The notes under the pieces were generated by a model, which was not told the DNA's origin, made no database searches, and saw nothing but the letters and a program-made list of their open reading frames with translations. The position numbers and the translations under genes are program-made. A DNA stretch of 37,417 bases from Ferrimicrobium sp. (GTDB taxonomy: Bacteria; Actinomycetota; Acidimicrobiia; Acidimicrobiales; Acidimicrobiaceae): assembly GCA_022690815.1 (NCBI GenBank), contig JALCZJ010000026.1, positions 1 to 37,417 on the forward strand, given 5' to 3'. Each line of letters starts with the position of its first letter. Position 1 is the first letter of the stretch. This document shows positions 2,562-3,993 of the stretch, piece after piece.

Positions 2562-2682
2562 TCGGAGGGCGCGGGTATAGCAGATGCATCGTGACGACGC
2601 CTATGGACAGGACTCGACTAGAGATCAGATACCTGCGGCCAGTTGGCACTAGGGATTGTCAAGGGATAGGTGAGGACGATCG

Positions 2683-3023
2683 ATGAACACGAAGCGACTT
2701 CTACAACCACAAGTCTTAATCGCAATCCTTCTTGTGCTGATTCTGGTGGGCGCTGTGCTCTTTGCGAATGGGTCATCTGATGGACCTCACTCGGGTGTCC
2801 TCTCTGTCGAAGCGATCGGTATCGCTATAACCCAGAAAGGGACATGTCCAGAAATTGCCCCAACCCTTGAGGCTCTGGAATAGTTGGCACTCAAGGAATC
2901 GTACTTGGCAGTTAGGGAGAATGCGTTACCTTTGGGCACAATAACTTTACTCCGAGGTTTACCGATCCAAAGCAAGCCCTTATGTCACTCTGTAAGAGCC
3001 ACGGGCTTCATGCGTCGTCTTAG
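2683..3023 (+). pseudogene. Small single-pass membrane protein, interrupted by TAG
   Basis: AGGTGAGGA precedes ATG 2683. The 66-residue frame has a clear N-terminal membrane segment (residues 11-29, VLIAILLVLILVGAVLF) followed by an exported-looking region ending at TAG 2881-2883. The same frame continues beyond the stop as LALKESYLAVRENALPLGT, which extends the helix before the stop (APTLEALE). A second frame then offers FTPRFTDPKQALMSLCKSHG and a TAG at 3021-3023. This pattern fits a protein of about 110 residues broken by a stop and a frameshift. It could also be a genuine 66-residue protein; the downstream part is inference. I do not recognise a family. Confidence 0.42.
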
Positions 3024-3261
3024 CGATATCCAATGGCACTGGAGTGGCGAACCCAATACGATCCACCTGAATTGCGAGAGGGTCGAGCGGAGACGAGACA
3101 GCGCTCATAATCCAAAAGGCCCATCAGGGGCCCCCACGCTTGTGGAGAGCCACATCGTTGCAAAGGTCCAAGTGTTGAAAAGGGCACTCGCTTCGATGAC
3201 AGCCACTATGGGGACTTGTCGGGTTTTCTGCAAGTCCGCAGGATTAAAACATGCCCTGACC
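3024..3261. other. Non-coding segment with a 7-bp hairpin beside the tRNA scar
   Basis: No gene seen. At 3212-3237 GGACTTG and CAAGTCC form a 7-bp perfect stem around a 12-nt loop. It lies 24 bp from the CCA end of the tRNA fragment, where an integrase arm or core structure, or an old tRNA terminator, might sit. There is no T-tract in either direction. Confidence 0.4.
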
Positions 3262-3308
3262 TGGTGGGCCCGGTGGGATTCAAACCCACGACCAAGGGAT
3301 TACGAGTC
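3262..3308 (-). other. 3'-half tRNA fragment (CCA end to anticodon loop), probable attachment-site scar
   Basis: Reading the minus strand from 3308 to 3262: loop CTCGTAA, stem TCCCT, variable TGGTC, a perfect T-arm (GTGGG-TTTGAAT-CCCAC), acceptor strand CGGGCCC, discriminator A and encoded CCA. The 5' half is missing: the strand opposite TCCCT reads GCTGA instead of AGGGA, no D-arm is present, and no matching acceptor strand occurs upstream. Homology therefore stops at the anticodon loop. Tyrosine-recombinase elements that integrate in tRNA genes recreate exactly such 3' pieces at their far end. The loop reads CGU (Thr), but the body resembles a CAU-type tRNA, so the parent tRNA is uncertain. 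Confidence 0.65.
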
Positions 3309-3430
3309 AGCTGGTAAGCGAAGCCCAGCGGGTACACGTCATGGTTCCCCATGGCTGAGACGAACCTTGCTGGAGGCAACTCGACCAGCCGCACGCACAA
3401 AGGGAACCTACTGCTTAACCCAGTAGTATG

Positions 3431-3651
3431 CCCGTATTGCTTAAACGCAGGGGGCCCAGCAAGGCAGCTGTGGCTGTTGCACACTCGATGCTCGATTGCG
3501 TTTGGCATCTACTCACCAATGACACCTTCTATGTAGACCCAGGGGCCGACGACTTCGATCGTCGTCGCGACCCAGCTATCCAGGCCAGGAAACTAGCTAG
3601 CTCTAGAGAGGCTTTGGGTTCGAGGTTACCATCACCCAGGCGGCCGTCTAA
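3431..3651 (+). pseudogene. C-terminal remnant of an IS110-family transposase
   Basis: The frame reads RRGPSKAAVAVAHSMLDCVW, then HLLTNDTFYVDPGADDFDRR and ARKLASS, matching the conserved C-terminal end of IS110-type DEDD/Ser transposases (pattern KAxVAVAHSxL...DFxRR). Near 3618-3622 one T appears to be lost. The other frame then supplies the natural end GFEVTITQAAV with TAA 3649-3651. Only about 73 residues of a protein of around 400 remain, and nothing of the RuvC-like half is found upstream. IS110 elements use a bridge RNA from their non-coding end; none can be recognised here. The remnant sits between the tRNA scar and the intact tRNA-Gly gene. Confidence 0.78.
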
Positions 3652-3920
3652 GGCCAACACCGACTCACCCTCTAGGGTCCGGTCTCGCGTGATGTTGAAC
3701 GTCACAGTGACGAAGCAACGCGGTTCGACCACCAAGACCGAAGACATCACAGTGCAAAACCAACTTGCCAGCACCCCCGCCTCTGACTGCCAGACTGCTA
3801 CACGCCGATGACACTGCAGACTCGCGCGCTCTGAATGCGGAAGTGAGATACGCATTACACCGCAACCAATTGGCACCCAATTCCGCGAATTATCAGGAGA
3901 GTTTCGCAAACAGCCCTTCG
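3652..3920. other. Non-coding gap between IS110 remnant and tRNA-Gly
   Basis: No gene supported. The segment just after the transposase stop may contain the former element end, but I see no clear repeat flanking it. Confidence 0.4.
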
Positions 3921-3993
3921 AGCGGACGACGGGACTCGAACCCGCGACCCTCACCTTGGCAAGGTGATGCTCTACCAACTGAGCCACGTCCGC
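3921..3993 (-). tRNA. tRNA-Gly (anticodon GCC)
   Basis: Minus-strand cloverleaf of 73 nt. Acceptor GCGGACG pairs with CGTCCGC, the D-arm holds GGCTCAGTTGGTAGAGC, the anticodon stem CACCT/AGGTG encloses loop TGCCAAG with anticodon GCC, and the T-arm is CGCGGGTTCGAGTCCCG. The discriminator is T and CCA is not encoded. All stems pair well, so the gene looks functional. It lies between the decayed strip and dut and is transcribed in the same direction as dut. Confidence 0.95.

Follow-up and report, generated by a model that had tools for sequence, protein, structure and literature searches.

A worn tRNA-Met 3' half joined to an IS110 remnant as a probable secondary site of small tRNA-bounded units in one bacterial family

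The window spans all of contig C26 (37,417 bp), one of the 60 contigs of a draft genome of 2.54 Mb, and carries on the minus strand of positions 3262-3308 the 47-bp 3' half of a tRNA-Met, running from the anticodon loop to the encoded CCA. The half is a worn copy of an intact gene and looks like the attachment scar of a tyrosine recombinase, of the type that lies in the anticodon loop. A conserved head sequence stands behind its CCA, an IS110 transposase gene is truncated at bases that it has in common with the tRNA, and the relatives show the architecture to which these parts belong. The half would be the attachment core of one unit of an element family with a tRNA-targeting tyrosine integrase, found in one bacterial family among the genomes compared, and it probably came to its present place when the integrase recombined a tRNA-Met-type unit with a pseudo-site in the IS110 gene beside a tRNA-Gly.

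At up to three mismatches, the 47-mer has two copies in its own genome, the one in the window and tRNA-Met(CAT) at C4:118876-118951, which agree at 45 of 47 bp. The block common to both covers 3256-3308, with 51 of 53 bp identical, and extends 6 bp past the CCA. An earlier note on this DNA had called the T-arm, acceptor strand and CCA perfect and had expected an intact tRNA with the same 3' sequence outside the window. Such a gene exists on C4, but the two sequences differ: the T loop of the half reads TTTGAAT instead of TTCGAAT, and the anticodon is CGT instead of CAT, changed in its middle base. It is because of these two changes that the half is regarded as worn. The 27-base core of the half is expected 0.00 times in shuffled sequence at up to three mismatches; the half is therefore not a product of chance. 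ARAGORN and Rfam, the latter at its gathering score, find no full tRNA at 3262-3308 and make a single call in the window, the separate tRNA-Gly at 3920-3993. This agrees with the earlier description of a 3' half that stops in the anticodon loop and has no 5' half, and the covariance models extend the identity over a full tRNA nowhere at this site. A permissive Rfam search gave a tmRNA match at 3262-3331 (15.2 bits, E 0.00078), which is far under the cut-off of 47 bits and was taken as the tRNA-like 3' part; a full tRNA and a tmRNA at this site were both rejected on these grounds.

The IS110 sequence occupies 3300-3864 of the plus strand and comprises the 3' part of the transposase gene (residues 297-411, approximately) and some flank. 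It is 76% identical in DNA to the copy in locus L102, whose intact protein carries PF01548 and PF02371, so that the remnant matches an intact DEDD transposase gene, and tblastn agrees on the 3' part of an IS110 transposase; similarity to two IS110 copies ends at 3864. Nine bases, GACTCGTAA (3300-3308, minus strand), are common to the anticodon loop and the IS110 gene and form the proposed crossover core. The form GACTCATAA is found in both the tRNA and IS110, and GACTCGTAA in one IS110 copy (consensus GACTCRTAA). All 11 IS110 rows that run across the break spot, among which the same G009 copy is counted twice, read CTGACTCRTAACT; they read CTGACTCATAACT, but one (L217, G015) has CTGACTCGTAACT. 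Across the same spot the tRNA reads GGGACTCATAATCCC and the window CTGACTCGTAATCCC. The window follows IS110 as far as CTGACTCGTAA and the tRNA from TCCC onwards, and is IS110-like through TAA, including the G in the anticodon. The break falls within the nine common bases, which hold the 7-nt anticodon loop. According to a review, the anticodon loop and its stem correspond to the 7-bp overlap and the core sites, respectively, at which tyrosine recombinases act (PMC8371274).

The integrase would presumably exchange strands across the 7-bp anticodon loop CTCATAA, and the core would have recombined with a look-alike CTCATAA inside the IS110 gene beside the tRNA-Gly. In the expected product the IS110 3' part is followed by the core, the tRNA 3' half and the head, and the unit reaches leftwards at least to 2605. 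Either the unit may have inserted into IS110, or the DNA between IS110 and the core of a neighbouring array may have been deleted. We infer that the integrase made this junction. Two observations count against it: the reciprocal junction was not found in the same genome, which has neither an IS110 N-terminal half nor a tail (at up to three mismatches), and the IS110 site, as judged by eye, has the nine bases of the tRNA without the inverted repeat that flanks them in the tRNA stem. The same product could have arisen without integrase, through illegitimate recombination over the nine common bases between a decaying unit and a decaying IS110 copy. Nine bases should be enough in principle, and both partners are worn, with two changes in the half and stops and frame shifts in IS110; nevertheless, this origin is unlikely, as the anticodon loop is exactly where the break falls, and in genome G020 the IS110 gene is broken at residue 298, the same residue as in the window, with another partner. 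In G020 the other half of IS110 directly follows, at GTCATAA, the end of a gene that was named phosphatase-like by eye. In G014 the orthologous gene ends in CTCATAG and carries a tRNA-Met 3' half with head there, and in G024 neither an IS110 half nor a tRNA-Met half is present at this gene end. Three kinds of TCATAR sites are thus joined to one another, tRNA to IS110 in the window, IS110 to the phosphatase end in G020 and the phosphatase end to tRNA in G014. As 7-mers of the TCATAR type also arise by chance, the argument rests on breaks that fall exactly there. For a third unusual junction (G002 C38, L097) an empty site could not be established; of the six other genomes of the genus that were searched, three match in the neighbouring gene only, at 67%.

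The intact tRNA-Met on C4 is followed, 80 bp behind its CCA, by an open frame that the contig end cuts after 108 codons and that shares 98% identity with the N-terminal part of a G002 protein of 406 aa, which carries a Pfam Phage_integrase domain. The genome therefore has an intact tRNA with an integrase beside it and a displaced 3' fragment (45/47 bp), the arrangement of islands of tRNA-targeted tyrosine integrases; the catalytic part of the integrase would lie beyond the contig end, which weakens our explanation. The earlier note had suggested looking for an integrase between the two copies; the expected pair of intact tRNA and integrase is present, with the copies themselves on separate contigs. 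Since C4 ends 404 bp behind the tRNA-Met, the island behind it is unassembled. Relatives of this integrase N-terminus are present in 26 of the 41 genomes compared and start 72-97 bp behind an intact tRNA-Met, Lys-TTT, Lys-CTT, Val-TAC or Arg-TCG, a range that covers the cases with the intact tRNA and the integrase start both fetched; the copies in L170 and L172 are interrupted. In G005, the integrases behind tRNA-Met and behind tRNA-Lys-TTT are identical over the 93 residues available, so a near-identical N-terminus stands behind different tRNAs. Both G005 contigs concerned (C22 and C117, loci L165 and L181) end at the same integrase codon, as an assembly repeat would. Contig C35 of the window's genome (L177) carries a tRNA-Arg(TCG) with a 383-aa integrase of the family at L177:11193-12508 and a tRNA-Arg(ACG) with a distant integrase (31% identity) at L177:362-1657. 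By eye, AAACCCAACAAGG recurs about 30-75 bp behind the CCA in head copies and integrase leaders (for instance L033:9953-10032) and is a candidate arm site of the integrase. A phage or plasmid origin was rejected, since the 517 matches of the integrase in phage records and the 171 in plasmid records are all below 60% identity (ten listed in each case at 22-30%), and viral contigs yielded neither a relative of the integrase nor an exact match to a pattern of 30 bases from the tail.

The head of the unit occupies 3040-3261 (minus strand), directly behind the CCA; it is conserved and non-coding, and was delimited by blastn and by alignment with 16 other copies. This head of about 222 bp is found behind 17 of the 23 tRNA-Met 3' ends compared, in nine genomes including that of the window, and in most copies its similarity stops at ...CACTCCA. 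The six ends without it, two with an integrase leader and four with other sequence, speak against our explanation and also weaken the cassette reading given below. The head could also be read as the native flank of tRNA-Met, which is less likely because, among the matches listed, similarity in G011, G012 and G017 ends within a few bases behind tRNA-Met and because G003 has three full heads and one piece on a single contig; a diverged flank could be missed at genus distance. A second head copy of the window's genome, at L112:7413-7642 (G000:C13:17404-17642), is about 75% identical and has no tRNA-Met half, and just before it a tail-like TACCAGCTCGG was seen by eye. A structured RNA in the head is not supported (RNAalifold covariation term +0.28, one of 30 pairs changed on both sides). 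The 7-bp hairpin reported earlier at 3212-3237 is present in the sequence and is not conserved: in 15 homologous heads the A-U pair is kept in three and no pair is changed on both sides, so that a functional role of the hairpin is not supported.

The other end of the units is marked by a tail motif that contains CTCGGACACT twice as a direct repeat and occurs 18 times in nine of the 41 genomes and not at all in a backward control. Each of the 18 tails adjoins a tRNA 3' half, the join being at the anticodon loop or just behind it (15 Met, two Lys-TTT and one Lys-CTT). The motif is absent from the 16 genomes outside the window's family and, at up to three mismatches, from the genome of the window. 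Fusions of tail to half were found in two of 296 genomes of a class sample, both from the window's family, which contributed four genomes to it, and a scan of named genomes, whose record names are the basis for the host family, gave seven loci, in Ferrithrix thermotolerans, an Acidimicrobiaceae MAG and Actinomycetes MAGs. The 47-mer itself, intact genes and halves together, is found at 26 places in 16 of the 41 genomes with up to three mismatches. In several genomes of the family a tRNA-Asn is followed by tRNA-Met and then by tandem units; each unit consists of a tRNA 3' half, usually followed by the conserved head, then of cargo and finally of a tail that runs up to the anticodon loop of the half behind it. 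Unit edges were set partly by eye, and array sizes are lower bounds in these draft genomes.

If the half tRNA were a distal scar, the element would lie on its 5' side, which is the right side here. On that side stand the IS110 3' part, an intact tRNA-Gly(GCC) (3920-3993, minus strand) at the edge of the conserved chromosome and, from about 4.5 kb to the end of the window (about 33 kb), mainly housekeeping ORFs such as glycosyltransferases, peroxiredoxin, MarC, GAPDH, PGK, TIM, CofD, UvrC and UvrA; one of the 20 ORFs scanned had no family. No element between the tRNA and its fragment is seen there, and the mobile-unit sequence lies on the 3' side of the half: behind the head, 2605-3039 (minus strand) has counterparts in units of G023 and G002, and sequence of 2605-3261 recurs behind tRNA-Met 3' halves in other genomes. 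The geometry of a distal scar therefore fails. Further left, 1-2604 holds IS200/IS605 remnants (about 566-1313) and a histidine-phosphatase gene (1840-2322) and matches no unit, which counts against our explanation. The remnants at 566-1313 are decayed transposase genes (Y1_Tnp and, weakly, HTH_OrfB_IS605).

The earlier note had proposed a tyrosine-recombinase scar at the distal end of an element; the attachment type in the anticodon loop is borne out, and a distal end of an element reaching to the C4 tRNA-Met is not. Such an island could have been split later by a large rearrangement, and the intact tRNA-Met with its integrase and the unassembled island on C4 would suit this course of events. 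It is very unlikely, however, as the element side is occupied by IS110, tRNA-Gly and genes that are mainly housekeeping, and the head stands on the chromosome side; the listed G011, G012 and G017 matches, which end so close behind tRNA-Met, speak against it, as does the usual distal end in relatives, a tail fused to the half (18/18), of which there is none here at up to three mismatches. Hardly credible is an assembly chimera at repeated tRNA sequence, for which the 60 contigs and the several IS110 pieces of this genome at contig ends could be cited, as the window and C4 copies differ at two bases and the 53-bp block is thus no identical repeat.

DNA similarity to ten relatives ends within 5 bp of the tRNA-Gly end, and four of these ten, each belonging to the window's genus, have a tRNA-Val(GAC) within the next 0.6-4 kb. 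The tRNA-Val(GAC) of the window's own genome is on C49. For these reasons, the left end of the window probably belongs to a variable spot that has not been assembled on its far side. C49 has no match to the left part of the window, the head or the tail, and none of the four tRNA-Gly/tRNA-Val spots is among the places with half tRNAs found by the 47-mer search.

The 14 stretches picked from the map measure 1,170-4,594 bp. Nine of them extend from a core as far as the next tail, and the family integrase has no match in any of these; for the remaining five, the measurement began behind an integrase gene or fragment. Bounded by attachment sites at both ends and devoid of integration genes, these nine units of relatives fit the CIME/accretion model; the window unit shows one end. 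One unit of 1,170 bp in G003, of the window's genus, is 91.6% identical over its full length to a unit of 1,178 bp in G007, of another genus, and its proteins in G003 match Pfam PhdYeFM_antitox and ParE_toxin. The longest aligned flank has 67% identity over 1.6 kb, and similarity falls behind the second half. Given this difference between unit and flank, the toxin-antitoxin unit is read as a putative transfer of an exact unit between genera, from which we infer mobilisation by a neighbouring or helper element. Among the other cargo are an ATPase, matched by PADLOC to PDC-S01, and, behind a tRNA-Met half at a secondary site in G014 (L105:675-2626), a gene pair matching AbiLi and AbiLii. The unit at L098:3126-5482 (G002:C39) lies between a tRNA-Met half and a tRNA-Lys-TTT half, so that halves of different tRNAs occur in one array. 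It is quite possible, and we propose it tentatively, that a tyrosine integrase of the anticodon-loop type acts in trans on integrase-free units of about 1-4 kb, each lying between a tRNA 3' half and a direct-repeat tail, and inserts, excises and exchanges them; the units would form tandem arrays of cargo behind tRNA-Met and tRNA-Lys in the manner of integron cassettes, with CTCATAA look-alikes in IS110 genes as secondary points of entry or deletion.

Half tRNAs are by rule used to map genomic islands, with the element placed between the half and the intact tRNA. As the present case suggests, a small unit can carry a half tRNA as its core to a secondary site, and the mapping rule would therefore place the island on the wrong side. 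The family would also be natural evidence that units of toxin-antitoxin size cross genera with exact ends and without integrase, and mobilisation in trans by a tRNA integrase is therefore testable.

As an analogy only, integron gene cassettes are likewise small, often encode toxin-antitoxin pairs and depend on a recombinase coded elsewhere. Integrons use IntI and folded attC sites, whereas the core is a tRNA half here. Islander lists 2083 of 3919 islands with an anticodon-centred site and accepts tandem arrays if each member has its own integrase (PMC4383910). Its anticodon-centred islands also have an intact tRNA, an adjoining integrase and displaced tRNA fragments; in contrast, the nine core-to-tail units have no family integrase, and the half in the window has no element on its 5' side. 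Accretion elements and CIMEs resemble the present units in being att-bounded, in tandem behind a target gene and free of integration genes (PMC5704250). CIMEs are described there as decayed larger elements, whereas the units here go down to 1.2 kb, and one of them is present in a second genus with 91.6% identity and the same ends. The ssrA islands of Dehalococcoides, 15 of which have no integration module, are also tandem and bounded by repeats of the target RNA gene (PMC3146451), but involve a serine recombinase and the tmRNA gene, against a tyrosine integrase and several tRNAs here. The tRNA-specific tyrosine recombinase IntpTN3 of Thermococcus can also recombine chromosomal sites other than att, as is proposed here, although over common segments of at least 100 bp instead of nine bases (PMC5495485). 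Tycheposons, compared by description, likewise have a tRNA gene, including tRNA-Met(CAT), at one border and a tyrosine recombinase, and are given as 4-200 kb (PMC10872708), against 1.2-4.6 kb for the units measured here, most of which fall below that range. Secondary sites and tandem integration are reported for SGI1 (PMC2297512). Scars in anticodon loops, islands in tandem and units that have no integration genes are thus already known (PMC4383910, PMC5704250, PMC3146451). No description of this element family was found in the literature searched, which consisted of partial texts, and within that range the conserved head and tail, the very small exact units, a single integrase clade serving several tRNAs and the IS110 pseudo-site appear to be new.
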